The notes beneath the pieces are model-generated. The model ran no database searches. It had not been told where the DNA came from and worked only from the letters and a program-made list of their open reading frames with translations. This document shows positions 8,104-52,120 of a stretch of 55,549 nucleotides of DNA, piece after piece. Location of the stretch: positions 1 through 55,549 of the forward strand of contig JAQTPK010000014.1 of the NCBI GenBank assembly GCA_028712885.1, read 5' to 3'. Positions within the stretch are counted from its first letter, which is position 1, and every line of letters starts with the position of its first letter. The translations under genes and the position numbers were made by a program. The stretch comes from Syntrophales bacterium (GTDB lineage: Bacteria > Desulfobacterota > Syntrophia > Syntrophales > UBA4778).

Positions 8104-8973
8104 ATGAAAACATCCCTTCTTCTTTCCGGTATCCCGAAAATCCGCTCCTTTATTTATATTTTGGCGGCATTTCTTACGGCCGCCGGAGCGGCCATAGCTC
8201 CCGCCGAGGCAGGACCCGCGATGCCGGCGGCGATCAGCCGGGCAATGGAACAACCGGCGCTTGCCGGGGATGCATCGCTGGGCTCCCTGTTTCCCGACGA
8301 ATTAGAAATCATCTCCAAATCCGGGGGCAACCTCGATCAGAAGGCGCGATTGAAGCTTGCAGCCGTGCGGCGGGACCACGCCAAGGCGCTCTTCAGGTTT
8401 CATAGGAGCAGGCAGCGCGAGGACGCCCTGGAGCTTGCCCTGCGCTACGCGAATTCCGCGCGGGAGCTCGATCCTTCCGATCCGCAGGGGCACCTCCTCG
8501 CCGGGATCATCTATTCGGAAATGGGGGAGTATCTCTTCGCGGGCATCAAGGCCGTCCAGTCGTTCGAACGAGCCGTAACGCTCGCCCCCGGCGTCCCATC
8601 GACAAGAATCCTTCTGGCTTTCGCTTATCTGAAAGAAAATGACCGCGACGACGCCCTGGAGCAGTTCGAGGAGGCGCTGCGACTGGACAGCTCTCTCGTC
8701 TCGCCGCGGATCGTCGGCCCGATGAACCTCTGCTACATCGCCCTCGGCAAGACCCAGATCGGCGAAGATTTCTACCGGCAGCTGCTGGCGAAAAGACCTG
8801 AAACGCCTTATCTGGCCCTCTCCAGGGCCGTGCTGCTCAAGCACGACCGCCGGCTGGACGAAGCGAGGGGCGAACTGAACAGGGTGATCGGCTGGCGGCA
8901 TGCCTCTGGCGAAGACAAGCGGTACGCCCGCGAGCTGCTGCGCAAGATCGTTGAAATGGAAGGGGGGCGGTAA
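8104..8973 (+). CDS. Exported TPR-repeat protein
   Basis: A 289-residue protein with an N-terminal signal peptide (hydrophobic stretch IRSFIYILAAFLTAAGAAIA, cleavage near APAEAG). It is followed by helical tetratricopeptide-like repeats at about residues 110-270. Typical TPR patterns are ALRYANSARELDPSDPQGHL, SFERAVTLAPGVPSTRILL and ALEQFEEALRLDSSLVSPRI. TPR proteins act as scaffolds for protein complexes, so a periplasmic adaptor role is likely. The ATG at 8104 has GGAG seven bases before it and gives a clean signal peptide. It is the first gene of an eight-gene set of exported proteins; the next gene begins one base after its stop. Confidence 0.8.
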   Translation: MKTSLLLSGIPKIRSFIYILAAFLTAAGAAIAPAEAGPAMPAAISRAMEQPALAGDASLGSLFPDELEIISKSGGNLDQKARLKLAAVRRDHAKALFRFHRSRQREDALELALRYANSARELDPSDPQGHLLAGIIYSEMGEYLFAGIKAVQSFERAVTLAPGVPSTRILLAFAYLKENDRDDALEQFEEALRLDSSLVSPRIVGPMNLCYIALGKTQIGEDFYRQLLAKRPETPYLALSRAVLLKHDRRLDEARGELNRVIGWRHASGEDKRYARELLRKIVEMEGGR

Positions 8974-8974
8974 G

Positions 8975-34932: not shown

Positions 34933-35256
34933 TTTTTCTCCTTAAATATCAGATTTCCTAAATGCGGCGCCCTTGGGATAACCGTGACTGCACCAGAGGC
35001 ATACAGCCGATCTGAAGCCTTATCTGCGTTTCTTTTAGATAATTCCGGTATTCTTTGTCAATCGGTTCATCTGTCCCCATACGGTAGAAATGAAGATAAT
35101 GTATAAAGTTCCCCAAAGCATCCTCAATACGGATGATCCTTATTTAGACGAGTCGTTTGGATGAGGAGCGGCAAGCTGAACGGGGGTTTACCTGCTGATC
35201 GGTTGCGGGATATACAAGCCGTAGATCAAACATGCATTCACCCGGCCCGACCGGGT
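34933..35256. other. Divergent intergenic region with possible leader or small RNA
   Basis: About 320 bases between the ATPase and the pil operon with no convincing gene. A TTGTCA occurs at 35055-35060. A small hairpin (ACCCGG/CCGGGT, 35240-35256) directly precedes a strong terminator. The sequence was compared from memory with the c-di-GMP-I (GEMM) riboswitch, often found before pilus genes in Deltaproteobacteria. The GCAAA and GACGCAAAG cores are missing. Confidence 0.4.
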
Positions 35257-35258
35257 TA

Positions 35259-35293
35259 AAAAAGGAGGCTGCGCAGGAAGCAGCCTCCTTTTT
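35259..35293 (+). terminator. Strong terminator upstream of pilM
   Basis: AAAAAGGAGGCTGC pairs with GCAGCCTCCTTTTT around a seven-base loop. The A and T tracts make it work in either direction. No gene reads into it from the left, so it ends either a short leader RNA or a small RNA, about 140 bases before the likely pilM start. A further hairpin (CGCCGG/CCGGCG) follows immediately. Confidence 0.8.
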
Positions 35294-35432
35294 GCGCCGG
35301 ACACCGGCGTTTTCACGGGGAAATGTTCCCGATGCAACCATAATGGCTGAAGCCAGCGAAAAAGCTTCTGGTTTTCTCAAGTTCAGGCGGGAAAATGTCG
35401 ATATGTTTGTATCCCGTTATGCAGGATTCATT

Positions 35433-36584
35433 ATGAAATGGCCGCTGCTGAAGCTTCCGCCGGGTTTATTGCGGACTGATGGAATTCCAGGCCTGTCCGG
35501 TTTCCGGACACGGTATCCAATCGCGCTTGATCTCTTCGAAGGCGAAATTCAGGCGCTCCAACTCCAAAAGACGGTCAAAGGCCTGGGGGTGAAGGCTATT
35601 TTCCGCTGCGAGGCTGAAGAAGCGGCTGAATCTTCCGGAGCCGGCGGCCCGGCCTGCTGGAAAAGGATCAGGAAGAGCGGCTTTTCGGGACGCAGCGCTG
35701 TCGCCCACGTCCCCGCCCAGGACATTTCCGTCTTTCCGATCCGTTTTCAGATCGAGGGAAGAGAAACTCTTGAAGGAGCGATTGTCAGGGAATCCAGGAG
35801 GCATCTTCCTTTTCAGATCGAGGAAGCCGTCCTGGATTATCCCTGCGTTACGCCCTGCACCAACGGGTCCGAAGCCGCTGAGTCTTACAAGGCCATCGTC
35901 ATTGCCGTTCACCGGGAAAAAATAAAAGAATACCTCGCGGAGATGGAAAAGACCGGCTTTATTGTCGAGGCCCTCGAGTACGGCGTCTGCTCGCTGATCC
36001 GGCTGCATTCGTACCTGCATACAATCGAATCCGAACCGGTCATCCTCTGCCACATCGGCCGAAAGAATTCCATCATAACTGTCGCCAACCGGGAGAGTAT
36101 TCTCGGGCAACGGACGATTTCTTTCGGTTTCGACGCCATTTCGGACAGGATCGCCTCCAATTTCGGACTATCCGGAAACCTGCGGGGCATCGTTTCCCTT
36201 CTGAAGAAGTATGGGCTTGCTTTCGATCAGGAGACAAAAACGGATAGAAAAAAAGAAGGCGAAAATTCCGGAGTATATCGCGCATTCTACCAGGTCATAA
36301 CTCCCCGGGTTGATGAGATGATCCATGAAGTGCATAAACTGGTCAGCTACGTGCGGGCCGAGGGGCAGAATCCTGCGTTCAAGGCGATTTACTTCTACGG
36401 ATACGGCGCGCTGATTAACGGGCTGGAGGCATACGTTGAAAAAAGGATGAATATCCCCGTCAAGAGTTCCGATCCCTTCAGCGGAATCAACCCGGGAAAG
36501 GAAGCGGCGGTTGACGAAATCCCGCAGGGGGCGCCTGTCGCCCTGATGATGGGTCTGGCGCTGAGGAAGGTCCCATGGGTTTGA
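35433..36584 (+). CDS. pilM: Pilus assembly protein PilM (actin-like)
   Basis: A 383-residue protein at the head of a PilMNOPQ-type operon. It has the shape of the actin-like PilM/GspL ATPase: a first strand PIALDLFEGEIQALQL, a middle region with SYKAIVIAVHREKIKEYLAE, VILCHIGRKNSIITVAN, and a late YFYGYGALINGLEAYV. It should sit on the cytoplasmic face and bind the N-terminal tail of PilN. The start is uncertain. ATG at 35433 has AGGA six bases upstream; 35403 and 35343 are alternatives. Anything before 35294 would be translated through a terminator hairpin. It overlaps pilN by ten bases. Confidence 0.8.
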   Translation: MKWPLLKLPPGLLRTDGIPGLSGFRTRYPIALDLFEGEIQALQLQKTVKGLGVKAIFRCEAEEAAESSGAGGPACWKRIRKSGFSGRSAVAHVPAQDISVFPIRFQIEGRETLEGAIVRESRRHLPFQIEEAVLDYPCVTPCTNGSEAAESYKAIVIAVHREKIKEYLAEMEKTGFIVEALEYGVCSLIRLHSYLHTIESEPVILCHIGRKNSIITVANRESILGQRTISFGFDAISDRIASNFGLSGNLRGIVSLLKKYGLAFDQETKTDRKKEGENSGVYRAFYQVITPRVDEMIHEVHKLVSYVRAEGQNPAFKAIYFYGYGALINGLEAYVEKRMNIPVKSSDPFSGINPGKEAAVDEIPQGAPVALMMGLALRKVPWV

Positions 36585-37159
36585 GAGACGTCAACCTGAT
36601 TGCGGAGGATGAGATATCCACCCGGCACGCCGTGCGGCATGTAGTATTCTGGACCTGCGGTCTGATTGTTATAACTTCCCTCCTCGGCGCCTTCTACCTG
36701 GCGTATGGCCAGGCGCTGAAAGCTCAGCGGCGGGCGATAGCGGAAAACAGCGACAAACCCGGCCTCCTCCAGGCAAGGATCGCGCAGATCCAGGCCGTCC
36801 GGGCGGAGATCGACAGGATCGGCCTGCAGCAATCGGCCCTGGAATCGGCCGTCCGGAATAAACGCCCCTATTCGCTGCTGGTGGAAAGGCTCGCGGGCGC
36901 AATGAACGACAGGACATGGCTCGCGCAGCTGGCGATTGAATCCGCCCGGGCGCCCGACGCGGAAGCCGCGATAAGGGTTTCGGGATTTTCCTTCACCAAC
37001 AGCGACCTGGGCGATTTTCTCCACCGGCTTTCCTCCGACCCGCTTTTCCGAAGGGTAGAGCTGAGGCTCTCTTCAGAGGGGGCCGCAGCGGGGGATTCGC
37101 GGGCGTTCCCGGCCGGCAGGTTCGTCCAGTTCCAGCTCGAGGGCAGGATATCAAAATGA
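36575..37159 (+). CDS. pilN: Pilus assembly protein PilN
   Basis: A 194-residue inner-membrane protein. It has a short cytoplasmic tail with the PilM-binding signature (LRDVNLIAEDE), one membrane helix (VVFWTCGLIVITSLLGAFYL, about 25-45), a periplasmic coiled coil (50-95) and a ferredoxin-like domain (about 100-190; WLAQLAIES, IRVSGFSFTNSDLGDFLHRL). It links PilM to PilO in the alignment subcomplex. It overlaps both pilM and pilO, so translation is coupled. Confidence 0.88.
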   Translation: MGLRDVNLIAEDEISTRHAVRHVVFWTCGLIVITSLLGAFYLAYGQALKAQRRAIAENSDKPGLLQARIAQIQAVRAEIDRIGLQQSALESAVRNKRPYSLLVERLAGAMNDRTWLAQLAIESARAPDAEAAIRVSGFSFTNSDLGDFLHRLSSDPLFRRVELRLSSEGAAAGDSRAFPAGRFVQFQLEGRISK

Positions 37160-37689
37160 AGCTTACCATGAAAAAAATAGATAGCGCCTGCATCGTCGCC
37201 ATCCTGGCCGTATCGCTGTCTTTCGGGTTTTTTCTCGCGCAGAAAGCCTTTCAGGAAAGGCGCGCGGTACGAACGGCCGATGAGGCCATGCAGAATACTC
37301 TCAGGCAATTGAGGGAGGCGGAAGCGGATCTGCAGCGCCTCCATCTCGGCCTCGGGGGGAAAAAACGGGAACTCGCCAGGCTTAACGAAAGGATCCCCGA
37401 AACGGTCGAAATGGGGCCGTTCCTGAAACAGGTTGACGGAATGATCCGCAGCCGCAACGTCTCCCTGCAGGGGCTCCAGCCGTCGTCACAGACGAAGGAG
37501 AATTATTTTTCAAAGATGCAGGTCCGCCTGCTGCTGAAGGGGCCGTTTCAAAACATCTATTCCCTGCTGCACGACCTGGACAAGATGGACCGGCTGGTGA
37601 AAACGGAAAAATTGACCATGACGAGGTCGGTTTCGGACAGGGCCTGCCAGGCGGATCTGGTGCTGGCCATTTATGCGCAAAAGGGCTGA
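37156..37689 (+). CDS. pilO: Pilus assembly protein PilO
   Basis: A 177-residue protein with one N-terminal membrane helix (ACIVAILAVSLSFGFFLAQK), a coiled coil (about 40-85) and a periplasmic PilO-type domain. The domain contains RIPETVEMGPFLKQVDGMIR and LLLKGPFQNIYSLLHDLDKM. PilO pairs with PilN in the periplasm. Its ATG overlaps the pilN stop (ATGA). Length and order match the usual type IV pilus alignment complex. Confidence 0.9.
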   Translation: MKLTMKKIDSACIVAILAVSLSFGFFLAQKAFQERRAVRTADEAMQNTLRQLREAEADLQRLHLGLGGKKRELARLNERIPETVEMGPFLKQVDGMIRSRNVSLQGLQPSSQTKENYFSKMQVRLLLKGPFQNIYSLLHDLDKMDRLVKTEKLTMTRSVSDRACQADLVLAIYAQKG

Positions 37690-37697
37690 GGACTCAC

Positions 37698-38198
37698 GTG
37701 GCGGGCTTTGGAAAAATAAGCGAGCGCACCAAGATAGCGGCGGTTGTCGGGCTCTCTCTGGTCCTGCTCGGGACGGCGTATTTCCGTTTTTTCCATAAGA
37801 GCGACCTCTTCCCGGGGAAAACCGGACCGGCGTCCGCGGCCGTGCCGGTTGCGGCGAAGACGGCGGCGCCGGCTGCCGCTCCCCCGGCGGGTTCCGCCTG
37901 GCCGGAAAACGCGGTTTCGCCGGCGTCGATCAGGGACATTTTTTCTCCGCTGTCGAGGTCTTCGGAACGGAAAGAGGCGGGAAGCGCGGAGCCCGGGCCC
38001 GGCCCGGTCGCGTCCTGGAAACTGAAGGGGACTATTCTGGGCGGCGGCCCGCCCATAGCAGTAATAAATGAAAAGTTTCTCCGCGAAGGAGAGAACATCG
38101 GCGATTACCGGATAGTGCGGATCAAAAAGAATGAAGTCATCCTGAAGTCGGGGCAAGAGCAGATCGTATTAGAGGTTTTGCCAAATGCTGAAAAATAA
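37698..38198 (+). CDS. pilP: PilP/GspC-type periplasmic linker protein
   Basis: A 166-residue protein starting at a GTG with GAGGA upstream. It has one membrane helix (about 12-30), an Ala/Pro-rich periplasmic linker (40-70) and a small beta domain at the C-terminus: WKLKGTILGGGPPIAVINEK, IGDYRIVRIKKNEVIL. This is the homology-region fold shared by PilP and GspC that touches the secretin N0 domain. PilP is usually a lipoprotein; here a transmembrane helix is used instead, as in GspC. It overlaps the secretin gene by 14 bases. Confidence 0.82.
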   Translation: MAGFGKISERTKIAAVVGLSLVLLGTAYFRFFHKSDLFPGKTGPASAAVPVAAKTAAPAAAPPAGSAWPENAVSPASIRDIFSPLSRSSERKEAGSAEPGPGPVASWKLKGTILGGGPPIAVINEKFLREGENIGDYRIVRIKKNEVILKSGQEQIVLEVLPNAEK

Positions 38199-39603
38199 GC
38201 TCCTTCTCCTTCTATTCGTCCTGTCGGCCGTGATTTCGGTCGAATTGCGATACGCCGGCCCCGCGGGAGCCCAGGCTGCTCCTCCGGAAAAGCAGGTTCA
38301 GCAGGCTCCGAAGCCGCAGCCGAGCCGGGAGGCGGAGCGCGCCCCCGACACATCCGCCATTATGGCGCGGATGCCGCAGTCCGGGCTTCTGAGCGTAAGC
38401 TTCTACCAGTGCGAGATCCGCGAGCTTCTCCTTGCGCTTGCCATCAAGCGGGGCCTGAACGTCATCATGGACCAGGACGTGTCGGGAAAGGTCTCCGTGC
38501 ATCTGAACCACGTCAGCGTCGAGCAGGCGCTCGATTCCCTGACCGCGGCCGGCGGGCTGGGCTATTCAAAACGGGGGGACGTCTATTACATCCACAAGCT
38601 GAAAAGTCCGAAAGACCCCCAATCGGACCGCCTGCAGGTGCGCATCTTTAATCTGAAATTCATTACGATCGACAAGGTCCAGGACGTCATCGGCGCCCTT
38701 CCGGGAATGCGGATGATCAAGATACACGAGCCTTCAAAAACGATCATTGTGGAAGACACGCCCGAAAATATCGCCAGGGTCGAAGCCCTGGTGAAGTACT
38801 GGGACGTGAAACCGAAGCAGGTCATGATCGAGGCGAAAATCCTCGAAATTTCCCTGACGGACGACATGAGCCTCGGCGTGGACTGGCAAAAGACAATCGG
38901 GGACGTCACCTTCGGCACGTCCGGCTTTGCCACCGGCACCAAGGGGCTGGTCACCAACGTCCTGAGCGGCGCGACCAACAGCCGGTTTACGGCCGCGCTG
39001 CGCGCGCTCCAGACGAAGACGAGAGTCAACACCATCTCGACACCGAAAATTCTCGCCGTTCACGGCAAAGCGGCGCGCGTGCAGGTGGGGGGCAAGCAGG
39101 GATACAAAGTTACAACCAGCAATCTCGGCGTTACCACAGAAACTATCCAGTTCCTGGATACGGGGACGATACTTGATATCACGCCTTTCATAGACGACAA
39201 GGAGCACATCCTTTTGACCGTTCAGCCGAGCATCAATTCCGTAACCTTTGACGACCAGAAGAACCCGGTCGTAAGGTCCACGACGGTCAACACCTCCCTT
39301 ATCGCCAGGAGCGGGGAGACGATTTTTATCGGAGGGCTGATCGAGGACAGAAGTTCGGGCACGCTGGAGGGCGTCCCGATTCTCAGCAAGATTCCCCTGA
39401 TCGGGTTCCTGTTTGGCGGGCGTTCGCGGACAATCGGGAAATCCGAGCTCGTTGTCCTGATCACGCCACAGATCCTCGAGCAGGAGATCCGGCGGGAATC
39501 CGGCGAAGCGGCGGAAAGGGTAAAGGAAAAGCACGAGCAGGAACCGCCGAAGCACCTGGGCAGCGATTTTATAGAGTTCCTGTCGCCGGACGAGTTTCCG
39601 TAA
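38185..39603 (+). CDS. pilQ: Outer-membrane secretin PilQ/GspD family
   Basis: A 472-residue secretin, shorter than typical PilQ or GspD (600-800). After the signal peptide and a Pro/Gln linker come an N0/STN-type domain (about 70-140; SFYQCEIRELLLALAIKRGL) and one N1-type domain (FNLKFITIDKVQDVIGALPG, IIVEDTPENIARVEALV). The beta-barrel secretin domain follows (about 225-440; KVTTSNLGVTTE, GTILDITPFIDDKEHILLTV, FIGGLIEDRSSGTLEGVPIL, IPLIGFLFGG). The reduced number of N domains is like MshL. It forms the ring through which the pilus or substrate leaves. Last gene of the plus-strand operon. Confidence 0.92.
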   Translation: MLKNKLLLLLFVLSAVISVELRYAGPAGAQAAPPEKQVQQAPKPQPSREAERAPDTSAIMARMPQSGLLSVSFYQCEIRELLLALAIKRGLNVIMDQDVSGKVSVHLNHVSVEQALDSLTAAGGLGYSKRGDVYYIHKLKSPKDPQSDRLQVRIFNLKFITIDKVQDVIGALPGMRMIKIHEPSKTIIVEDTPENIARVEALVKYWDVKPKQVMIEAKILEISLTDDMSLGVDWQKTIGDVTFGTSGFATGTKGLVTNVLSGATNSRFTAALRALQTKTRVNTISTPKILAVHGKAARVQVGGKQGYKVTTSNLGVTTETIQFLDTGTILDITPFIDDKEHILLTVQPSINSVTFDDQKNPVVRSTTVNTSLIARSGETIFIGGLIEDRSSGTLEGVPILSKIPLIGFLFGGRSRTIGKSELVVLITPQILEQEIRRESGEAAERVKEKHEQEPPKHLGSDFIEFLSPDEFP

Positions 39604-39783: not shown

Positions 39784-42135
39784 TCAAAATTCCCTTATCT
39801 TTTTCCAGAAGACAACCCGGATCCGGTTATTGTCCGTATCGCTCACGTAAATCCGGCCGGCCCCGTTCGCCTGGGCCGGGGCGATGCCGGCCGGCCAGTT
39901 GAGGCGGGACGTTACCGCCGGCTGGTTGTCGTAATCGAAACCCGAATTACCCTGGCCCGCGATCGTCACGATCACGGAATCCGAGGCCCGCACCATTCTG
40001 ATCACGTGATTCATGGTGTCTGCGATATAGAGATTACCTGAGCCGTCGATGAATACGGAACGCGGGTAATTGAGATGCGCGCTTGCGGCGCTCCCGCCGT
40101 CGCCGGCATAGCCGGCAACGCCGCTTCCGGCAACGGTGCTGATTACGCCGCTCTGGCCGTCCACCCGACGGATTTTGTGATTGGAGGTGTCGGCGATATA
40201 AAGGTTTCCCGATCCGTCCAGCCAGATGCCTTCGGGAGTATTGAGCCGGGCGGAAGCAGCCGACCCGCCGTCCCCTGTCGAGCCCGGAAGACCGTTTCCC
40301 GCGACTGTTGTAATGATTCCGCCGGAGCTCACTCTCCTGATCCGGTGATTATCCGTATCGGCGATATAAATGCTCCCGCTTGCCGCGGCATGTACGGCCC
40401 TGGGGTCGTCCAGCTTGGCAAACACCGCCCAGCCCCCATCCCCCGAATCCCCCGAACTGCCAGTCCCTGCAACCGTGCTGATTATTCCTGAACCGGCATC
40501 CACTTTCCTGACCCTGTGATTTTCCGTGTCTGCAATGAATATATTTCCGTTCTGGTCCACGTGCACCCCCCGCGGGCTGTCCAGGTGGGCCCAAACTGCG
40601 TAGAAGCCGTCGCCCCAACTCCCCCGGATGCCGGATCCGGCAACCGTGCTCACCACGCCGGTCACGGTGTCGAGCTTGCGGATCCGGTGGTTTCCCCGGT
40701 CCGCGATATAAAGGTAATAGCGGGAATCCGCCGCGCTGTACTGAAGGGTGATCTGACCGGGCGCGTTCAGGCCTCTGCCCGTCGCCGGAATCGTGGAGAT
40801 GCTGCCGCCCGGTGCGAATTTCCGCAGAGAGTTGTTCATCGTGTCGGAGATGACCACTTCCCCGTTCGACTTCACGCATGCGCTCCTCGGCCCATCCAGC
40901 TCGGCGCCGGTCGCGGCCCCGCCGTCACCGGAGTACCCGGCAACGCCTGTACCCGCGACTGTCGCGATAACGCCGGAAGTATTTACTCTTCTCACCCGGT
41001 GATTATCGGTATCGGCGATCAGGATATTGCCCGAGGTGTCTACGAACACTCCATGGGGGTCGTTGATCCTTGTCGACGTCGCCTGCACGCCGTCTCCGAG
41101 ATAGCCGCTCTGCCCGTTCCCGGCTACGGTGCTGATGTTGAAAGGCGACGCGGCGCTTACTTTTCGTATGCGATGATTATCCGAATCGGCGATGAACAGC
41201 TCGCCCGCCGCGTTCACGTATATTCCTTCCGGATGGTTGAGGCGGGCGGTCGCGGCCGCTATGCCGTCGCCGTTGTATCCCGCCGCGCCCGTCCCGGCCA
41301 CCGTCTGAATCAGGAAAGGCGACGCGGCGTTCATTTTCCGGATCTTGTTGCTCTCCGTATCGGAGATGAAAACGTTTCCCGCGGAATCGACAAAAACGGC
41401 ATGGGGCCGGTTCAACCGGGCGGAAGCTGCCGGCCCGTTGTCGCCGGAATCGCCGGCCGTTCCGTCGCCGGCGATCGTGCTGATATAACCGAAGGGATCC
41501 ACCTTGCGGACGCGGTTGTTTCTGGTATCCGCGATATATATGCTCCCGGATGAATCGCCGGAGACGCCCTGGGGAGAGTCAAGCCGGGCCTGAACCGCCG
41601 GACCGCCGTCCCCGCTGAAGCCGCTGGCTCCCGTCCCCGCCACCCTCACGATCGCGCCGGAAGTCGTGTCTACCTTCCAGACCGAGTGATTGTCCGTATC
41701 GGCGAAATAAATGTTATCGGCTGCGTCCCGGTAGATCTGATCCGGCTTTCTCGCCATTACCGGAGTGTCTATATAATAGCGAAGCCCGGCCAGGAGCGGC
41801 CTCAGCTCATCCTTCCTTTTTACCGAAAGCAAAACCGAGTCGGTAAATCCGGAAACCGTGGAGCTCAGTATTTTCCTGCTATAGACCGACCCGTTGCAGG
41901 TGAAATCCTCTCCGTCCGCGCCTGTCCTCAACGCCGGATTTTGGGTAAGCCGCCAGATGGAATCCTCGATCACGGCCAACCGGTCCATCTGGAACTGCAT
42001 CGACGCAGCCTGATTGAATCCCATCCTGGCTTGCATCCCCGCCCCGCGGTTCAGGGCCGCCGCCGTTACGGCCAGCAGCGTCAGCATGAACAGGATCACT
42101 ATTAATATGAATCCATCTTTATTGTAACTTTGCAT
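39784..42135 (-). CDS. PilX/GspK-like minor pilin fused to twelve NHL repeats
   Basis: A 783-residue protein. The N-terminus (NKDGFILIVILFMLTLLAVT) is a class III-like prepilin leader and hydrophobic helix of the PilX/GspK kind, without the Glu at position 5. A short pilin-like region runs to about residue 115. The rest, about 650 residues, is twelve NHL repeats with the core (I)YIADTxNHRIRKV and Gly/Asp-rich loops (SGDGG), enough for two six-bladed beta-propellers. A tip-located pseudopilin carrying a large propeller would present it outside the cell as an adhesin or receptor, much as PilY1 does with its propeller, though PilY1 itself is absent here. The ATG at 42135 is preferred to the TTG at 42141. 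Last gene of the minus-strand pil run. Confidence 0.85.
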   Translation of the reverse strand: MQSYNKDGFILIVILFMLTLLAVTAAALNRGAGMQARMGFNQAASMQFQMDRLAVIEDSIWRLTQNPALRTGADGEDFTCNGSVYSRKILSSTVSGFTDSVLLSVKRKDELRPLLAGLRYYIDTPVMARKPDQIYRDAADNIYFADTDNHSVWKVDTTSGAIVRVAGTGASGFSGDGGPAVQARLDSPQGVSGDSSGSIYIADTRNNRVRKVDPFGYISTIAGDGTAGDSGDNGPAASARLNRPHAVFVDSAGNVFISDTESNKIRKMNAASPFLIQTVAGTGAAGYNGDGIAAATARLNHPEGIYVNAAGELFIADSDNHRIRKVSAASPFNISTVAGNGQSGYLGDGVQATSTRINDPHGVFVDTSGNILIADTDNHRVRRVNTSGVIATVAGTGVAGYSGDGGAATGAELDGPRSACVKSNGEVVISDTMNNSLRKFAPGGSISTIPATGRGLNAPGQITLQYSAADSRYYLYIADRGNHRIRKLDTVTGVVSTVAGSGIRGSWGDGFYAVWAHLDSPRGVHVDQNGNIFIADTENHRVRKVDAGSGIISTVAGTGSSGDSGDGGWAVFAKLDDPRAVHAAASGSIYIADTDNHRIRRVSSGGIITTVAGNGLPGSTGDGGSAASARLNTPEGIWLDGSGNLYIADTSNHKIRRVDGQSGVISTVAGSGVAGYAGDGGSAASAHLNYPRSVFIDGSGNLYIADTMNHVIRMVRASDSVIVTIAGQGNSGFDYDNQPAVTSRLNWPAGIAPAQANGAGRIYVSDTDNNRIRVVFWKKIREF

Positions 42136-42233: not shown

Positions 42234-42917
42234 TTATTTATTTATCCGCCTTGCCCTTGCCCTCGTTTTCAGAGCCACTTCCCCTCTTCCGTCACTCACC
42301 GTGAGCTCTATCTGGACCACGTCGCCTGAAATCCGGCTGCATTGGAAGAGGGTTACGTGCTCGCAGATTACACGCGGGGACAGATTATTACCCTGGGACG
42401 AACTGCTGTAATCGGGCAGGGTTTCTCTCAGCTTTTTGTTCCCCGCATCGCTTTCGTCGAGATCGAAGGTGACATAGTCGTATGCATCGCTTCCTCCTGC
42501 ATTGACCAGTCCATCCGCGTCAAAATCCGCATCGGGTATCCCGTCCCCCGCAGCATCATATTCATGGGTAGTATTATTGTATGTATCCAGCACACGCTCG
42601 CTGATGCGAAGCCGGGATTCGGCGGTCGCAGTATCCGGTTCCGCTATCAAATCCGTTTCCTCTACGAACATGACCATGCGCTCCATCGCGAAGCGCGCCG
42701 CTGAAACGAGGTCCTGCCTGCCGCGCGTCGATGAATAGGCCGTCACGGACGACCCCACGGCCTGGTACATGGCGAGCATGATTACTCCCAGCACCGCCAC
42801 GCTGATCAGCAGTTCGATAAGCGTAAATCCGAATATCGGGCATCCGGCTTCGGGCTTCCGGCCTCGGGATAAAAAAGCCTTGAAGAAGTAACGAATGCGA
42901 TCCCCTTTTCGACTCAT
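42234..42917 (-). CDS. PilW/GspJ-like pseudopilin
   Basis: A 227-residue prepilin. The leader ends PIFG and is followed by FTLIELLISVAVLGVIMLAM, a full type IV pilin helix with Glu at position 5. The body (about 50-225) is beta-rich with an Asp-rich segment (DADFDADGLVNAGG) that could bind calcium, as GspJ- and PilW-type minor pilins often do. The ATG at 42917 is chosen because upstream sequence consists of repeats. It sits between the PilV-like gene and the NHL-fusion gene, each junction carrying heptamer repeats. Confidence 0.85.
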   Translation of the reverse strand: MSRKGDRIRYFFKAFLSRGRKPEAGCPIFGFTLIELLISVAVLGVIMLAMYQAVGSSVTAYSSTRGRQDLVSAARFAMERMVMFVEETDLIAEPDTATAESRLRISERVLDTYNNTTHEYDAAGDGIPDADFDADGLVNAGGSDAYDYVTFDLDESDAGNKKLRETLPDYSSSSQGNNLSPRVICEHVTLFQCSRISGDVVQIELTVSDGRGEVALKTRARARRINK

Positions 42918-42993: not shown

Positions 42994-43449
42994 TCAGTGG
43001 TTTGCTTTAAAAGTCTTGAACTGTATTCCTTTCAGAGCAGCAGTGATCTCCAGAAGGCCGCCCCAGGCACCGCCCCGGCTTGTGATTACGACGGTCGGAG
43101 TATAAGTGCTGCCGCGATACGAAAAAGTCTCCTGCCCCGAGCCGAACAGCGTATCGAGATTGACGGGATTGGCGTTGCCGCCGCCGGCCAGGTCGCTCAG
43201 CGTCTTGAAATCCAGGGCCGCAACGCGGTTCAGCGTTCCCCGGCACCGGCCGGCGAAAACCGCCGCCTCCTCTTCCCCTCCGGAAGAAAGGATCCCGGGC
43301 GAATAGGCCTCGATCATGGCATAAACCGCCACCGAAAGGATCAGGAGGGCTACGACCACCTCGAAAAGGGAAAATCCCGGTCTTCGCCCAGAAAATATTT
43401 TCCGGCGTGTGCGCGAAAGAAATAATAATGCATGCGTTCTCGATAGCAT
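42994..43449 (-). CDS. PilV/GspI-like pseudopilin
   Basis: A 151-residue prepilin. A basic leader ends in RRPG and is followed by [20 protein letters not shown], with Glu at position 5. The globular part is short and beta-rich ([30 protein letters not shown]). Size and order (FimT/GspH, then this, then PilW/GspJ) match the minor pilin set that primes pilus assembly. Its ATG lies just downstream of the perfect heptamer tandem repeat. Confidence 0.85.
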
Positions 43450-43464
43450 ACCAGGGTGATCCTT

Positions 43465-43562
43465 CCCTTTGCCCTTTGCCCTTTGCCCTTTGCCCTTTGC
43501 CCTTTGCCCTTTGCCCTTTGCCCTTTGCCCTTTGCCCTTTGCCTTTTGCCTTTTGCCTTTTT
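43465..43562. repeat. Perfect heptanucleotide tandem repeat, 14 units
   Basis: Eleven exact copies of CCCTTTG (43465-43541) followed by two CCTTTTG units and one CCTTTTT (43542-43562). On the sense strand of the operon it reads as GGCAAAA then GGCAAAG units. It begins at the stop codon of the FimT/GspH-like gene and ends 16 bases before the PilV-like start codon. One more short stretch of the same units lies inside the 5' end of the FimT-like gene (about 44139-44155). The open frames inside it are artefacts of the repeat. Confidence 0.97.
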
Positions 43563-44187
43563 ACTTCACCCTGATTCTTCCCGCTATTCCATCCACGGAG
43601 ACCGTTTTCTGCCCCGCGCCGGAGCTCAGCACGAAACTGGCGCCCGCGGAAGAGGAATGGCCGTCGGGGTAAAAGATTACCTCCCCTCCCGAGGTAATCG
43701 CCACTCCCCTTAATGCTTCCATGGTATCCAGGTCCTTGAGGTACCAGTTTTTATCGAGCGGGTTCAGTACAACGCCGTTGGCATCGACCGGCGGATCACT
43801 GTCGTGATGAGGGGAAGAATCGTTCCGGTACCGGTTGTCGTATACGCGAAACAGGTTGCCGCTCGCGTCCGCAATGACGCCGAAGGGCCTCTGGTACCGG
43901 ATGGATAGATTGGCGGCGTACTGAAGTCCGGAAACCAGTTCCGAGGCCGCTTCATTCAGCCTTGTTTCCGCTGTAAACGATGAAAACGACGGAATGGCGA
44001 TCGCGGCAAGGATGCCGGCGATCAGAATGACCAGCAGCAGATCTATCAGGGTAAAACCGTCCGAGGCGTCAGGGCGGCTGCGCAATCGCAAACGGCAGAG
44101 TGCGGAAATGAGGATGCGCCGGTTTATGGGGCCTTCAGCCCTTTGCCTTTTGCCCCGAGTCTTTCTAATACGTCGCGTGCGCAACAC
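43561..44187 (-). CDS. FimT/GspH-like pseudopilin
   Basis: A prepilin of up to 208 residues. The helix [20 protein letters not shown] has Asp at position 5 where Glu is usual. The body contains [20 protein letters not shown] and a YFLKD-type beta region ending in ISGGEVIF-like strands, typical of FimT/GspH. The start is unclear: no ATG or GTG is in frame before the helix. The TTG at 44187 overlaps the end of the main pilin gene by 23 bases; nearer TTG codons are near 44095. Part of the 5' end consists of the GGCAAAG-type repeat, so the N-terminal 20 residues may not be genuine. Confidence 0.8.
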
Positions 44188-44728
44188 CGCCGCTGCTCAG
44201 GTTGTCATCTGAGAAAAGAAGTCCCGTAATGGGGAAGTATTTGTATCCGCCCGCATCGGACCCTGTCCTTGCTACCGAGAGGCTGGCCTCATCGAAATCA
44301 ACCACGAGATCACTTTTATTGTTAAAGGGGTTCGTAGGAATGCCGTGCTTCAGATACGGACCGAAAACGGGCTCCGTAAGAGCGGTTCTACTTGCGTTTG
44401 TTTTCCCGGTGGCATCGGAGTAAAGAGTGAGCTGGTCGAGAGCAGCCGTCTTCGCCTCGGCATCGCTTGTTGCCGCCCCGCTTCCATCAGTTTTTACAGC
44501 ACCGGGATACTTGTTATTATGCTGCTGATAATAGAGCTCGATGGCGCTCCGCATTGCGCTCAGGTTGGTTTTCAATGTGCTGATCTTGGTGTCGTCCTGG
44601 CTTACCGAGAATTGCGGCACGACGACCATGGCGAGAATGCCAAGTATTATTATCACAATCAACATCTCCACCAGGGTAAAACCTGACGAATTCTTGACGC
44701 ATCCTGCATGTTTCTTGATCATATTCAT
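44165..44728 (-). CDS. Major pilin / GspG-like prepilin
   Basis: A 187-residue prepilin. The ATG at 44728 has GAGAGAGG upstream and gives a 16-residue leader ending NSSG, then FTLVEMLIVIIILGILAMVV with Glu at position 5. The body has the GspG/PilA-like segment MRSAIELYYQQHNNKYPGAV, and an Asp/Asn-rich C-terminal loop with TNPFNNKSDL. It is the first pilin after pilC and the likely main subunit. The 165-base spacer before it (44729-44892) may hold its own promoter, but no clear -35/-10 or -24/-12 was found. Confidence 0.9.
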   Translation of the reverse strand: MNMIKKHAGCVKNSSGFTLVEMLIVIIILGILAMVVVPQFSVSQDDTKISTLKTNLSAMRSAIELYYQQHNNKYPGAVKTDGSGAATSDAEAKTAALDQLTLYSDATGKTNASRTALTEPVFGPYLKHGIPTNPFNNKSDLVVDFDEASLSVARTGSDAGGYKYFPITGLLFSDDNLSSGGVAHATY

Positions 44729-44892: not shown

Positions 44893-46023
44893 TTAACGCA
44901 GCGCGCCGGCGATTTTGAACATGGGGAGGATGACCGAGGAGACGATGAGCCCGATAATCGCCCCCAGGATAACAAGAGCGACAGGCTCGATCAGAGAGCT
45001 CGCTGTTTTCAGCGACTGCTGGATCTCTCCGTCATAGAATTCGGCGAGCCGGATCATGACCATGGGAAGATTGCCGACTTCCTCGCCGGTCGCGATCATC
45101 TGCTTCACCGATTCCAGGACGTACGGGTTCGTCGAAAAGGGCTGGGAAAATTTCCCGCCCTGCTCCACGTGCTCGCGAATCTCGTCTATAAAGTGGACGA
45201 AATGCCTGTTGACGAAGGTGCCCCGGGTCGCCTCCAGCGCCTGGAGGAGCGGGACATGGCTCTCCAGCAGGTGCCCGAGCGTGCGGAGGAACTGGCAGGT
45301 ATAGATCTTGTTGCTTATCCCGGAAATGACGGGGGCGGAAACGAGAAAGCGGTCGCGAAACGCCCTCCCCCGCTCTCCCGAAAAAAAATACTGCACGCCG
45401 AGCGCAAAAGCGGCTGCACCCGCGGCGTAGATCCACCAGTAATTCCGCAAAGATGCGCTCAACTGCATCAGGAATCGAGTGGTAAAGGGGAGCACGCTTT
45501 CCTTGCCTTCGAACAGAACCGCAAATTTGGGCAGGATCCCAATCATGATAAAAAGGATGACGGCGACGGAAAGCACGCACAAAATGACCGGATATGTCAG
45601 CGTGGTCCGGACCTGCGTCACCAGCGCCCGGCGGCGCTCCATGATGCTCGCGATCCCGTCCAGAGATTTTTTCAGGAATCCGCCCGTTTCGCCGGCCCTG
45701 ACCATGGAGATGAAGATCGGATTGAATACCTGGGGGTGCTTCCGCATCGCATCGGATAGCTGGCGGCCCTCCTCGATGTCCTGGAGCATGGAGACAACGA
45801 CTTCCCGGAGGGCGGGCTTGCTCGTCTGGTGCGCGATCGCGCGGAGGGCCTGGTTGAGAGGCGTCCCGATTTCCACCATCAGGGAGAGCTGGGAAGTGAA
45901 GAATATGATATCGCTGTAGCGGACCCTGTCCCTGAGCAGGCGCAGTAAATTGATCCGCTCCCGCCCGGATTCCCGGGGGGCCGCCGAGGCATCAATTTTT
46001 TCTGTGCTGTACGAAATAGCCAC
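44893..46023 (-). CDS. pilC: Inner-membrane platform protein PilC/GspF
   Basis: A 376-residue polytopic protein with two GspF domains (about 38-160 and 240-362) and three membrane helices (TYPVILCVLSVAVILFIMIG; WWIYAAGAAAFALGVQYFF; VALVILGAIIGLIVSSVILP). SQLSLMVEIGTPLNQALRAI and RTLGHLLESHVPLLQALEAT are the paired domain starts. It anchors the PilB motor to the growing pilus base. It starts at a GTG. The gap to pilB (46024-46080) is filled by heptamer repeats. Confidence 0.93.
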   Translation of the reverse strand: MAISYSTEKIDASAAPRESGRERINLLRLLRDRVRYSDIIFFTSQLSLMVEIGTPLNQALRAIAHQTSKPALREVVVSMLQDIEEGRQLSDAMRKHPQVFNPIFISMVRAGETGGFLKKSLDGIASIMERRRALVTQVRTTLTYPVILCVLSVAVILFIMIGILPKFAVLFEGKESVLPFTTRFLMQLSASLRNYWWIYAAGAAAFALGVQYFFSGERGRAFRDRFLVSAPVISGISNKIYTCQFLRTLGHLLESHVPLLQALEATRGTFVNRHFVHFIDEIREHVEQGGKFSQPFSTNPYVLESVKQMIATGEEVGNLPMVMIRLAEFYDGEIQQSLKTASSLIEPVALVILGAIIGLIVSSVILPMFKIAGALR

Positions 46024-46080: not shown

Positions 46081-47814
46081 TTATAATTCCATTGAGATGA
46101 CGCGCCGTATCTCCTCAATCGTGGTCTTACCTTCCAGTACCTTCTGGTATCCCACGTCCCGCAGCGACTTATGGCCCCTCTCCTTCAGGTATTTCTGAAG
46201 ATCGTCGTTCGTCGGGTTCCTTATGATCAGCGCCTGGAGACCCTCATCCATCTCGAGAATCTCGTGCAGCCCCGTCCTCCCCTTGAAGCCCGAATCGTAG
46301 CACTCGGAGCAGCCGTTCCCGCTGAAAAGATGGAGCCTTTTCTCTTCTTCCACGCCGAGCTCCCGGAGGACGGCCCCGGAGGGATAGTATTTTTTCCGGC
46401 AGCTCGGGCAAATGATTCGGATCAGCCTCTGCGAGAGGGCGGTCAGGAGCGCGGACGAGATCAGGTACGGCTCGATTCCCATCTCGAGCAGTCGGGTGAT
46501 GGCGCTGGCGGCATCATTGGTGTGGAGCGTGGAGAGGACGAGATGGCCCGTCAAGGCCGCCTGAATGGCTATCTCGGCGGTATCCCGGTCCCGGATCTCG
46601 CCGACCATGATGATGTCGGGGTCCTGCCGCAGGGCGTGCTTCAGGAACTTTGCGAATGTCAGACCGATCGACTCTTTCACCTGGTTCTGGTTGATGTCCT
46701 TCAACTGGTATTCGACCGGGTCCTCGATCGTGATAACGTTCTTTTCGAGCGTGTTGAGCAGGGTGAGCGCCGCGTAAAGCGTGGTCGTCTTTCCGCTTCC
46801 CGTCGGGCCGCAGAGCAGGATCAGCCCGTGCGACTTTTTCAGACCGGCCTTGAACCGGCTGAGGGTGTCGGGGTCGAACCCGAGCTTATTGATGTCGAGG
46901 ATGGCCTTGCGCTGGTCGAGTATCCTCAGGACAACCTTCTCGCCGTGAATGCTCGGCATGGAGGAAAACCTGAGATCGACGATCCCGCCGTCCGCCTGGA
47001 CCTGGATGCGCCCGTCCTGGGGGATTCTCCTTTCGGCGATATCGAGATGGGCCATGACCTTGAGGCGGGAGACCACGGCGGGGTGCATCTCGATTTTGGG
47101 GGACATGAGCTCGTACAGGATCCCGTCGATCCTGATCCGCACCCGGAAATTTCCGGGCTGGGGCTCAAGGTGGATATCGCTGGCGCCGTCCCGTATCGCG
47201 CGGAGGATGATCATGTTGACGAGGTTGATGACGGGGCTGCCCTCGGCCATTTCGGCCAGCTCATTGATCCCCTTTTCGGGGTCCGCCTGGACCAGCTCGA
47301 TGGCGGTCTCCTCCGCGCTCGACATGACCTCGTCGATGCTTGCCTCTCCCCGGTAGCATTCGTGGATCGCCTCCACGATATCGTCCGTGCGGCAGAGCAC
47401 GGGCTGGACTTCCAGGTTCGCAGTCCGCGATATTTCGTCAAAAACAAAGATGGCGTGGGGGTCCGCCGTGGCCAGCGTGAGGATGTTGTTGACGCGGAAC
47501 ATCGGAACGACCTGGTAGGCGAGGGCCTTCTCCTTGGGAAGGACGTGGACTATCTTGGGGTCGACGAGCCCCTTGCGGAGCCAGATATGCGGTATGCCGA
47601 GCTGCTCCCCGAGCACATGGGTCAGCTCTTCTTCGGACAGGATTTCCTTCTCCACCAGGAGCTGGCCGAGGGGCTTGTTGCTCCCCTTCTGCTGGCGGAG
47701 CAGTTCGTTCATCTGCTCGGGCGAGATCCGGCCTTTGCGGACCAGAATTTCGCCGAGCCTTTTTCTGACTGGAAGATTGCGGCTTTTCATTTTTCGATCA
47801 GCAGGCGCCCTCAC
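46081..47814 (-). CDS. pilB: Pilus extension ATPase PilB/GspE
   Basis: A 577-residue motor. Two MshEN-type N-terminal domains (about 15-150; RLGEILVRKGRISPEQMNEL) are followed by the ATPase core. The core has Walker A GPTGSGKTTTLYAAL (about 335), an Asp box IEDPVEYQLK, Walker B DPDIIMVGEIRDRDTA and a His box STLHTNDA. A four-Cys zinc site (CPSC, then CSEC) precedes GRTGLHEILEM. MshEN domains of this kind often bind c-di-GMP in related proteins, so pilus extension may respond to that signal; this is an inference. It starts at a GTG sharing GTGA with the end of the STAS gene; ATG at 47790 is an alternative. No retraction ATPase (PilT) is in the window. Confidence 0.94.
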   Translation of the reverse strand: MRAPADRKMKSRNLPVRKRLGEILVRKGRISPEQMNELLRQQKGSNKPLGQLLVEKEILSEEELTHVLGEQLGIPHIWLRKGLVDPKIVHVLPKEKALAYQVVPMFRVNNILTLATADPHAIFVFDEISRTANLEVQPVLCRTDDIVEAIHECYRGEASIDEVMSSAEETAIELVQADPEKGINELAEMAEGSPVINLVNMIILRAIRDGASDIHLEPQPGNFRVRIRIDGILYELMSPKIEMHPAVVSRLKVMAHLDIAERRIPQDGRIQVQADGGIVDLRFSSMPSIHGEKVVLRILDQRKAILDINKLGFDPDTLSRFKAGLKKSHGLILLCGPTGSGKTTTLYAALTLLNTLEKNVITIEDPVEYQLKDINQNQVKESIGLTFAKFLKHALRQDPDIIMVGEIRDRDTAEIAIQAALTGHLVLSTLHTNDAASAITRLLEMGIEPYLISSALLTALSQRLIRIICPSCRKKYYPSGAVLRELGVEEEKRLHLFSGNGCSECYDSGFKGRTGLHEILEMDEGLQALIIRNPTNDDLQKYLKERGHKSLRDVGYQKVLEGKTTIEEIRRVISMEL

Positions 47815-48152
47815 GCCTCGCTTCTTACCGCTTCCTGCACATCGCGGTACACGTTAAACACATTGATCAGGCGGGTGGCCAGGAGAATGTCCCAGCAGAC
47901 TTTGTTGAGTCCGCATATCTTCAGTTTCTGGCCGCGGCTTTTCATTGCATCATGCATGCGCAGCAGCAGCTCGAGAGCTTTGCTGTCCATCAACGAAACC
48001 GATTTGCAGTCCAGGACGATTCCGGACTTCTGCTTGACCAGGGCGTCGAAAACATGCTCCAGGTCATCGCAGTTCTTGAAGGTCAGCATATCCCTGGGTA
48101 TCAGGATGTTGTTGGCGCCCGCCTTCATTATTCCTATTTTTGAGGACGACAT
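47811..48152 (-). CDS. STAS-domain anti-sigma-antagonist-like protein
   Basis: A 113-residue STAS-fold protein of the SpoIIAA type. The conserved strand-helix is IVLDCKSVSLMDSKALELLL; the Ser in MDSKAL occupies the usual phosphorylation position. It would be controlled by a serine kinase and phosphatase, and would bind a partner in a regulatory switch. No anti-sigma kinase or PP2C phosphatase is seen in the window. It overlaps pilB (four bases) and follows the HD-GYP gene by one base, which ties it to pilus control. Confidence 0.88.
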   Translation of the reverse strand: MSSSKIGIMKAGANNILIPRDMLTFKNCDDLEHVFDALVKQKSGIVLDCKSVSLMDSKALELLLRMHDAMKSRGQKLKICGLNKVCWDILLATRLINVFNVYRDVQEAVRSEA

Positions 48153-48153
48153 T

Positions 48154-49614
48154 TTACTTCTCCCCGTCTTCCGATATTATTGACGGGAAGGCCTTCATGA
48201 ATACCCTGACTATGTCGGGGTCGAGCTGGGTTCCGGCCGACTCCTCGACTATCCGCAGCGCCTCCCGCGGATGCTTGGCGGAGCGGTAGGCGCGGTCGGA
48301 ATTGACGGCGTCAAAAGTGTCCGCAACCGCGATGATCCGCGCGTGGAACGGAATATCCTCCCCTTTCAACCCGCGCGGGTAACCTCCCCCGCCGAAGCGT
48401 TCATGGTGATGGAGGATCCCTTCCAGGGATTTCGCCAGGGGGGCCAGCGGCTTCAGGATATTAAAGCCCTTCTCCGGATGGGACTTGATGATGCGGAATT
48501 CCTCGTCGTCGAGCCTGCCCGGCTTGTTCAGGATGTTTTCGGGTATCCCGATTTTCCCCACGTCGTGCAGGATGGCCGCCCAGTGCAGAACGCTTCTCTC
48601 GGGCGCTTCCATCCCCATCTCGTCGGCTATCATAAGACAGTACCGGTTCACCCGCTCGGAATGGCCGCGGGTATAAATATCCTTCGCCTCGATAGCGGCG
48701 ACGAGGGACTCCACGACGTTGATGACGAAGCGCTCCAGCTCGCCGTAGAGTTCCGCGTTGGTTACGACGCCGGCGACCTGTTCCGAAATCGATATCAGCA
48801 GTCTCAGCTCGCTGCGGCGGAATGTCTCCCTCATGTTGAACGACGCCATGCCGAGCCAGCCGTAATACTTGCCCTTGTCTTGTATCCTGACCGCAAGAAA
48901 GCGGAACGGATCGGGATGCAGGGCCGCGAAAGCCGGCACGGACCTGGAATCGTTCAAGACGAAATAATTTTCGGCCAGGCTCGGACTGTCCGGAGGGATG
49001 CACGCGAACAGTTTCTGGATGAAGCGCGGCAGCCCTTCCATCTTCCGGCTGCCGACCATGAAATCCAGCTCCGGCCGCCCGGGGAACAGGGAGAAAACGA
49101 ACTCCATCCGCATCGTGCTCAGGAGCTCGCCGATGAGCTCCTTCAGCATACCCCCCGAGAAGCTCAGGGTCTTGATCTGCGGCGCGATCCGGGAATAAAG
49201 ATAGATGTGCTCGACCAGCTGGGCCAGCTCCTGGCTCATCTGCTCCGTCTCGCGCTGGGTCGCCCATTTTTCCTCCATCATGGAAGATACGCTGACAAGG
49301 AGCTTTTCCAGTTTGAATACCTGCTGTTTCCCGATCTCCGCCTGCCCGTTTCCGTTGCTGCAGGCGATCAGCGAACCCGCGACATCGCTGCCGTGCATAA
49401 GGGGCACTCCGGCGAAAAAGCTCCCCGGGGATGAGACGGACCGGAATGCATTTTCCCGGGCGATCTGCACGGCGAGTTCCGTTATCCGCTCCAGGCAGCC
49501 CGCGGGGCCTTCGGAAAGCAGGGGAAAGCCGTCCGGATCGGCAATCATGAACCGGTACCCGCTGACTCCTTCGAGACCGTCCAGGAATTGCCTGAAATAG
49601 CCGTAATCCATCAC
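48154..49614 (-). CDS. HD-GYP domain protein with N-terminal sensor regions
   Basis: A 486-residue protein. The first 110 residues resemble a PocR- or GAF-type sensor domain (GYRFMIADPDGFPLLS). A coiled coil and a second GAF-like region follow (about 150-290). The C-terminal HD-GYP domain (about 300-480) has HSERVNRYC, HDVGKIGIPENILNKPG, HHERFGGGGYPRGLKG and ARIIAVADTFDAV. The usual HHERxDGxGYP is altered: Asp is Gly, although the GYP triad and the HD metal residues remain. HD-GYP proteins hydrolyse c-di-GMP or related dinucleotides. Its place between the two-component pair and pilB suggests control of pilus assembly through a second messenger. Confidence 0.9.
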   Translation of the reverse strand: MMDYGYFRQFLDGLEGVSGYRFMIADPDGFPLLSEGPAGCLERITELAVQIARENAFRSVSSPGSFFAGVPLMHGSDVAGSLIACSNGNGQAEIGKQQVFKLEKLLVSVSSMMEEKWATQRETEQMSQELAQLVEHIYLYSRIAPQIKTLSFSGGMLKELIGELLSTMRMEFVFSLFPGRPELDFMVGSRKMEGLPRFIQKLFACIPPDSPSLAENYFVLNDSRSVPAFAALHPDPFRFLAVRIQDKGKYYGWLGMASFNMRETFRRSELRLLISISEQVAGVVTNAELYGELERFVINVVESLVAAIEAKDIYTRGHSERVNRYCLMIADEMGMEAPERSVLHWAAILHDVGKIGIPENILNKPGRLDDEEFRIIKSHPEKGFNILKPLAPLAKSLEGILHHHERFGGGGYPRGLKGEDIPFHARIIAVADTFDAVNSDRAYRSAKHPREALRIVEESAGTQLDPDIVRVFMKAFPSIISEDGEK

Positions 49615-49618
49615 GCGC

Positions 49619-50008
49619 TCACGTATTCATGAGTTTGTCTTCAAAATACCTGTCTATGCAATCCGCCAGCCGCAAAGGACTGAAGGGCTTCTCCATGAAA
49701 ATGGTGTCTTTCATCCCGTCAATCCATTTCTGCTCGTCCGGAGATATCCTCGCTGTCATGATCACCGTCAGAAAGGAGCGGAACTCTTTCAGGGGATTGA
49801 CCATTTTGCAGAGCGCCTCGCCGTCGAGTTTCGGCATCCTTATATCCGAAATGACGGCATCGGGCTGCAATGATCTGATCGCTTCCAGTCCCTCTTCCCC
49901 GTTCTTGGCGGTAATGACTTCATATCCGCGCTTTTTCAGAATGACTTCGATCACGCGGCGGATATGCACTTCGTCGTCAATAACCAGCACTTTCCTAGGA
50001 TCTGGCAA
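49619..50008 (-). CDS. Single-domain response regulator
   Basis: A 129-residue receiver domain. VLVIDDEVHIRRVIE gives the acidic pair, DAVISDIRMPKLDGEAL the phospho-acceptor Asp (about residue 55), and IFMEKPFSP the conserved Lys. A TTG start at 50008 is supported by AAGGAGG eight bases upstream, and it overlaps the kinase gene by 14 bases. No output domain is present, so it probably signals by protein contact, perhaps to the HD-GYP protein encoded four bases after it. Confidence 0.9.
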   Translation of the reverse strand: MPDPRKVLVIDDEVHIRRVIEVILKKRGYEVITAKNGEEGLEAIRSLQPDAVISDIRMPKLDGEALCKMVNPLKEFRSFLTVIMTARISPDEQKWIDGMKDTIFMEKPFSPLRLADCIDRYFEDKLMNT

Positions 50009-51809: not shown

Positions 51810-52120
51810 AGCCCCCAACACATAAAAATATAAGGATTTCGGATAACTCCGACCATAGCAATATTCGGGATCTGGGAGGAGAGTACGGCAGTAAGCCGCA
51901 ACTATCCTTTAATGGTATCGGCTTCCCCCCCTGAAACTTTAGGCTTCAGCTGCAAACACGTCAGTTTTATTAATTAATTTTCTTGGAGGAAAGAACTCTT
52001 CAGATTATTGAAATTAAGTATTTAAGGTATAAACGGCAAGCAGGTTGGGGAAAGGAAGGGCAGGCCTATATTCTGGCGGCTAAAGAGTACACTTTAACCA
52101 ACTCGGAACCCCGGACTTTT
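51810..52120. other. Intergenic region, AT-rich, no gene
   Basis: About 310 bases between the kinase and the CBS gene. It contains small hairpins (CTGAA/TTCAG near 51932-51954; GGC/GCC near 51888) and an isolated GGAGGA at 51985-51990 that is not followed by a convincing start codon. It should hold the promoter of the kinase operon. No named riboswitch was recognised. Confidence 0.35.

Follow-up and report, generated by a model that had tools for sequence, protein, structure and literature searches.

Known type IV filament tip effectors are either separate proteins (PilY1) or pilins onto which a lectin or vWA module is grafted. Among the modular pilins, PilB and PilC of Streptococcus sanguinis combine a pilin module with a bulky C-terminal functional domain and have been proposed to lie at the tip, and a survey built on IPR012902 lists over 1,200 such proteins in 264 architectures (PMC8179133). 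At the T4aP tip, a pilin without Glu5 (PilX) and a beta-propeller protein (PilY1) together end the minor-pilin run, and the same Myxococcus study likened PilX to GspK of the T2SS (PMC7541494). More generally, the conserved H, I, J and K pilins are described as a tip complex capped by the subunit that lacks Glu5 (PMC10191384), and in the MSHA pilus the binding of c-di-GMP to MshE promotes extension (PMC7096442). Superfamily surveys leave many systems as ‘generic’ (PMC6668835). Here we describe a predicted K-type pilin fused to twelve NHL repeats, encoded in a 55,549-nucleotide stretch of Syntrophales DNA (the whole of the DNA analysed, hereafter the window). In the papers covered by our search, no pilin-NHL fusion is described.

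The protein is probably a variant within the modular pilin kind. Like the S. sanguinis proteins it has a putative pilin module followed by a bulky C-terminal domain, but it differs from them (PMC8179133) in a head without Glu5 and without an N_methyl match, in its pair of NHL propellers, and in belonging to a diderm machine with a secretin. It likewise resembles PilX plus PilY1 (PMC7541494) in that the minor-pilin run closes with a pilin lacking Glu5 and a beta-propeller, but here both are in one chain rather than two, with NHL repeats rather than PF05567, and apart from the genome's own PilX/PilY1 cluster. With GspK it shares the gene-order slot, the lack of an acid at position 5 and the presence of an extra domain, whereas it has no T2SSK match, carries NHL propellers in place of the GspK alpha-domain, and is encoded separately from the genome's own 322-aa GspK.

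The pilin head and NHL repeats of the K-slot fusion

The fusion gene (39784..42135, minus strand) begins with an ATG at 42135 and is open and unbroken over 783 aa, which family scan, repeat motifs and AlphaFold2 divide into a leader (1-8), an alpha-1 helix (~9-65), a pilin domain (~66-125) and two propellers (~130-449 and ~459-780). Its N-terminus, MQSYNKDG followed by FILIVILFMLTLLAV, can be read as a prepilin leader and shows a Gly/Phe site and a hydrophobic helix that AlphaFold2 models at residues 6-65. Mature position 5 is Val, in agreement with the preliminary description, which had proposed a prepilin-type N-terminus without Glu5; in the window's pilin run this position is Glu in G, I and J and Asp in H, and the acid is missing in K alone. 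In Pfam scans the protein matched NHL at 207 bits (E 3e-63) and TEN_NHL at 205 bits, residues 8-45 reached 16.9 bits against PilX_N, below its cut-off of 25.5, and no match was reported to N_methyl, to the T2SSK domains PF03934/PF21687 or to the PilY1 beta-propeller domain PF05567. The putative pilin domain (66-125) was poorly modelled in both AlphaFold2 models (pLDDT ~32-54 in the model of residues 1-460).

Across the window K and the orthologs described below, no K protein has an acid at position 5: a prepilin regular expression parsed five of them, with V, A, I, T or L there, and L027 and G155, which were read by eye, have G; such expressions were not sensitive, one having missed L027 and another both L027 and G155. 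PilX_N scores were 16.5-16.9 bits in the K proteins of the window, G012 and G142 against the cut-off of 25.5, none was reported for G249 and L027, and only the sibling K of G223 passed (28.7 bits). N_methyl was absent from the window K and from four other scanned K proteins with a conserved or PilX-type head, and because of this an IPR012902-based survey would probably miss them, although an NHL pilin may still be among the 264 architectures of the survey, which we draw on in part (PMC8179133). Chance or a frameshift artefact is rejected on the unbroken frame and on full-length orthologs, which combine both parts in members of other families (48% identity) and make the fusion more than chance. 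As a separate observation, mature position 5 of the H pilin is Asp rather than Glu in each of the four machines examined (window, G012, G249 and L027).

The C-terminal part holds twelve NHL repeat motifs in ~640 residues, slightly fewer than the ~650 first proposed, at a step of 56-60 residues except for 48 between repeats 6 and 7. Twelve repeats are likewise present in the orthologs of G012, G142 and G249, each with 49-50 residues at that same step, while L027, G155 (by eye) and the G223 sibling have six, so that the repeat numbers over the seven K proteins, including that of the window, are 12, 12, 12, 12, 6, 6 and 6. An AlphaFold2 model of residues 1-460 (14-row alignment, pLDDT 81.8) showed exactly six four-stranded blades at 130-449, mostly at pLDDT 88-98, which matched the NHL domains of SOQ1 and NHLRC2 with Z ~44 and rmsd 1.6-1.9 over ~318 residues. 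In the full-length model (pLDDT 76.4, pTM 0.53) a second propeller lies at ~459-780 and matches the same two domains with Z ~42.6 and rmsd 1.8-1.9 over 314 residues. The two models trace the first blade differently (residues 69-151 and 157-174 fall below pLDDT 50 in the full model), and several structural matches of the full model span residues 152 to 777. The fusion is thus predicted by these models to carry two six-bladed NHL propellers, as had been suggested from the twelve repeats. A single twelve-bladed ring is opposed by the step of 48-50 residues that separates repeat 6 from repeat 7 in 4/4 twelve-repeat proteins, by the six-repeat versions and by the separate 1-460 model. Also rejected was an origin of propeller 2 as a blade-by-blade copy of propeller 1, the blade scores of the window protein having no i to i+6 pattern. 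Blades 1, 7 and 12 of the window protein best match blades 1, 7 and 12 in G012, G142 and G249 (3/3 each) and the inner blades mostly shift place among these orthologs, and judged by their sequences the blades at the propeller ends are those held fixed. The inner blades look homogenised across orthologs, with blades 3-5 of G142 nearly alike.

The extra domain (NHL, 207 bits, two propellers) is not specific to pilus biology, and we identified no ligand or active site on the propellers; a viral fold search returned distant propellers only. NHL proteins of ~2,700 aa were also seen in Thioploca MAGs (L033:3103-11163 and L064:3940-12087). Two alternatives to a tip adhesin bear directly on these propellers. 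They could be too wide for the exit, and would then retain the pseudopilus in the periplasm, limiting its length or plugging the secretin, perhaps as a sensor; the bulk of a tandem propeller pair and the NHL propeller that forms the extracellular domain of the kinase PknD are both in keeping with this, but six-repeat versions fill the same slot in three genomes, and PilY1, a large propeller protein too, has been reported to occur on purified pili as well as at the tip of the pilus (PMC7541494), and we consider such a cap or gate improbable. We give still less credence to the idea that, instead of being an adhesin, the NHL part brings an enzymatic or metal-binding domain to the cell surface: weak SGL and PhoX family matches point this way, as does a suggestion, in a paper from which we cite one part, that NHL proteins are able to bind mineral nanocrystals (PMC12016550), yet the SGL and PhoX matches lie within the repeats, where sequence common to propellers probably accounts for them, and no catalytic set was identified.

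The machine around the fusion

The fusion had been described as the end of a minor pilin run, which it is, but its neighbours extend well past the minor pilins to a whole E-to-secretin machine. The minus strand reads E-F-G-H-I-J-K from the assembly ATPase: E (46081..47814; T2SSE 457 bits) carries an N-terminal MshEN c-di-GMP domain (PF05157 58.9 bits against a cut-off of 23.1; NF053729 57.6 against 38), and is followed by the inner-membrane platform protein F (44893..46023; T2SSF 187 bits), the G-like (major) pilin with Glu5 (44165..44728; N_methyl 32.7 bits, its top NCBIfam match being GspG below cut-off), the H/FimT-like minor pilin with Asp5 (43561..44112, start codon uncertain; GspH 29.5 bits, marker profile A2), the I/PilV-like minor pilin with Glu5 (42994..43449; N_methyl 22.9 bits), the J/PilW-like minor pilin with Glu5 (42234..42914, start codon uncertain; N_methyl 25.4 bits) and the fusion. 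Convergent on the plus strand are genes for PilM-like (35232..36584; PilM_2 73.5 bits), PilN-like (36575..37159; PilN 32.9 bits) and PilO/GspM-like proteins (37156..37689; PilO 44.3 and T2SSM_b 24.7 bits), a protein assigned to PilP/GspC by position only and without a Pfam match (37698..38198), and the secretin (38185..39603; Secretin 136 bits, PilQ 195 bits against a cut-off of 284). Thus both the type IV filament core (ATPase, platform protein and pilins with a class III leader, N_methyl being above cut-off on G, I and J) and the diderm set (secretin plus PilM, PilN and PilO, all matched in Pfam) lie in the window. In G012 and G249 both halves are co-directional from E to secretin, and in L027 the genes from G to secretin are. 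The E-to-K order matches that of the T2SS locus of G117, which is ordered E-F-G-H-I-J-K-L-M-C-D, and within this complete machine, arranged in T2SS order, the fusion takes the K slot.

Upstream of E, also on the minus strand, lie genes for a STAS-domain protein (47811..48152; STAS 44.6 bits), an HD-GYP-type protein with a weak GAF match (48154..49614; HD_5 143 bits, with the HD motif at residue 350 and GYP at 411), a single-domain response regulator (49619..50008; Response_reg 67 bits) and a histidine kinase with a PAS domain (49995..51821; HisKA 60 and HATPase_c 105 bits). The HD domain was confirmed at 7/7 loci scanned (window, G223, G249, G012, G142, G286 and G155), with the HD and GYP motifs themselves read in the window protein only, and STAS at 4/4 (window, G223, G249 and G142). 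The MSHA pilus (MshE) and the window machine both have MshEN on the assembly ATPase. MSHA gene order probably differs from that of the window machine, and the MSHA tip protein is not known to be an NHL fusion. Elsewhere in the window are a histidine kinase of 1277 aa that contains about six PAS domains (1261-5094, plus strand) and a 1563-aa ORF (8900-13591, plus strand) with no Pfam match at 1e-5, adjoining WG-repeat/MORN and ankyrin-repeat proteins.

Curated models for T4aP and T2SS leave the window machine unclassified, as its best scores stay below their cut-offs (PilB 601/675 bits, GspE 576/630, GspF 286/424, PilQ 195/284 and GspD 170/351), and it might fall among the ‘generic’ systems of superfamily surveys, so far as the cited part of that work defines them (PMC6668835). 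The chief rival to a surface filament, which we regard as unlikely, is a T2SS variant in which a short pseudopilus would remain in the periplasm with K at its tip, the K propellers binding export substrates and pushing them through the secretin with no display outside. The E-F-G-H-I-J-K order followed by L/M/C/D equivalents speaks for such a variant, together with the single-locus layout, the top scores of the G pilin and platform protein (GspG and GspF, respectively) and the operon itself, within which we found no retraction ATPase. However, the inner-membrane proteins are PilM/N/O-like rather than GspL/M, the secretin and ATPase score best against PilQ and PilB (though all such scores are sub-cut-off), MshEN and HD-GYP indicate a regulated pilus, no obvious substrate gene lies inside the operon, and a T2SS with a classical GspK is already present in the genome.

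That T2SS is one of several filament systems in the source genome (97 contigs, 99% complete), in which five ATPases exceed the T2SSE cut-off. It occupies contig C15 from F to E, and its 322-aa GspK matches T2SSK, as does the GspK of G117. Contig C51 carries pilD, fimT, pilV, pilW and pilX and then, at the contig end, an apparent PilY1 N-terminus, and a PilY1 cut by the contig start is found at C3:3-2618 (PF05567 64-67 bits against a cut-off of 28.1); these two pieces probably adjoin. PilA is encoded with pilS/pilR on contig C2. The earlier statement that no PilY1 is visible is therefore right for the operon and the window but not for the genome, as PilY1 is on C3 (67 bits, cut-off 28.1), with what is probably its N-terminus on C51. 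Among six fusion-bearing genomes PilY1 was above cut-off in four, weak in G249 and not found in G142. Since the genome encodes a fimT-pilV-pilW-pilX-pilY1 cluster as well as a T2SS, the fusion is not a genome-wide substitute for PilY1; it serves a third, separate machine alongside a canonical T4aP and a canonical T2SS.

Recurrence of the machine in the phylum

The fusion is not confined to one genome, as it was found in seven, and a search for the same domain pair beside pilin genes elsewhere, which the preliminary description had put forward as a check, was answered in G012, G142, G249, G229/L027, G155 and G223. The same machine is present in seven other genomes of the phylum, and in these six of them the K slot holds a pilin-NHL fusion with 12 or 6 repeats. 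With the window included, the fusion occupies the K slot at 7/8 machine loci; the eighth is G286, where the contig ends after F, cutting off the K slot, and where neither the H nor the K profile gave a match at the thresholds used. A secreted-looking 796-aa protein (L230:7720-10110) adjoins the sensor kinase of the G286 machine.

Profile searches support this membership. A K-head profile run on 155 genomes from the order gave three strong matches (G000, G012 and G142); 26 genomes matched at E 0.01, of which the remaining 23 scored no more than ~24 bits. In a sample of 395 genomes from the phylum it matched four (G000, G155, G229 and G249). An H-pilin profile again returned the K-head genomes strongly, plus two weak full-length matches, G214 and G223. 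G223 has the same operon with a K of 476 aa that combines a PilX_N head (28.7 bits) with six NHL repeats, a head not matched by the K-head profile at E 1e-5. Moreover, an ATPase profile run on the 395 genomes placed G000, G155, G223, G229, G249 and G286 at 1052-1126 bits, with G483 next at 669 bits, and the machine ATPases are 66-73% identical among five, 60% between G223 and the window, and share 31-43% identity with the remaining ATPases in the comparison. A scan of named genomes found 110 relatives, and among the 80 loci kept from it only L027 aligned to the pilin head according to the match ranges listed. Several further candidates were rejected: by ORF reading, partly without a family scan, G117 is an ordinary T2SS, G214 an ordinary T4aP minor-pilin cluster with a PilY1-like protein and G483 an ordinary pilB-pilT-pilS-pilR-pilA locus; the G009, G014 and G036 loci were read as T4aP minor-pilin clusters, and G043 as a chance match.

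The recurrence of the fusion in several related genomes looks like a conserved way to carry a large domain on a filament tip. Considering that the fusion is in every readable K slot, that its propellers come in sixes and that two unlike pilin heads bear them, the propeller would be the constant of the machine, with the head perhaps exchanged or the graft made twice, and we tentatively propose, without yet favouring it outright, that these loci form a previously undescribed class among c-di-GMP-regulated type IV filaments, whose defining feature is its propeller-bearing K.

A proposed propeller-bearing filament tip

We lean slightly towards reading the fusion as the apical (K-type) subunit of a distinct c-di-GMP-regulated type IV filament with its own adhesin-like propellers at the tip, in effect PilX and a propeller in one chain. 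Prepilin peptidase would remove the 8-residue leader, and the head would assemble with pilins H, I and J and so prime the filament, its lack of an acid at position 5 being what is expected of a tip-capping subunit. The NHL propellers would then be carried on the filament end, pushed out via the secretin, and may attach to a surface or partner in much the way that PilX and PilY1 of the T4aP do, but as a single chain. That the head should prime or cap the filament, with the propellers at its end, draws on the H-I-J-K tip model and the PilX/GspK parallel, each as given in the cited part of its source (PMC10191384, PMC7541494), and we infer display at the pilus tip from position 5, gene order and fold together. 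In the same way, the histidine kinase, receiver, HD-GYP and STAS proteins of the operon may set the c-di-GMP level, which the MshEN ATPase would sense and convert into filament extension; because c-di-GMP promotes MSHA extension through its interaction with MshE (PMC7096442), MshEN and the HD-GYP neighbour suggest MSHA-like c-di-GMP control. The analysis itself establishes the anatomy of the protein, its operon and its conservation and predicts two six-bladed propellers; leader cleavage, tip position, surface exposure, adhesion, a ligand, and c-di-GMP control of the machine are what we infer for this locus.

By building one or two six-bladed propellers into a K subunit, the fusion unites both ideas of a tip effector, the separate propeller protein and the modular pilin, in a single-chain tip that could be directly produced and studied. 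Since the slot is constant across families while the propeller number ranges from one to two, the fusion allows a clean test of the role of a tip propeller, and it points to a machine that family profiles have left unclassified.
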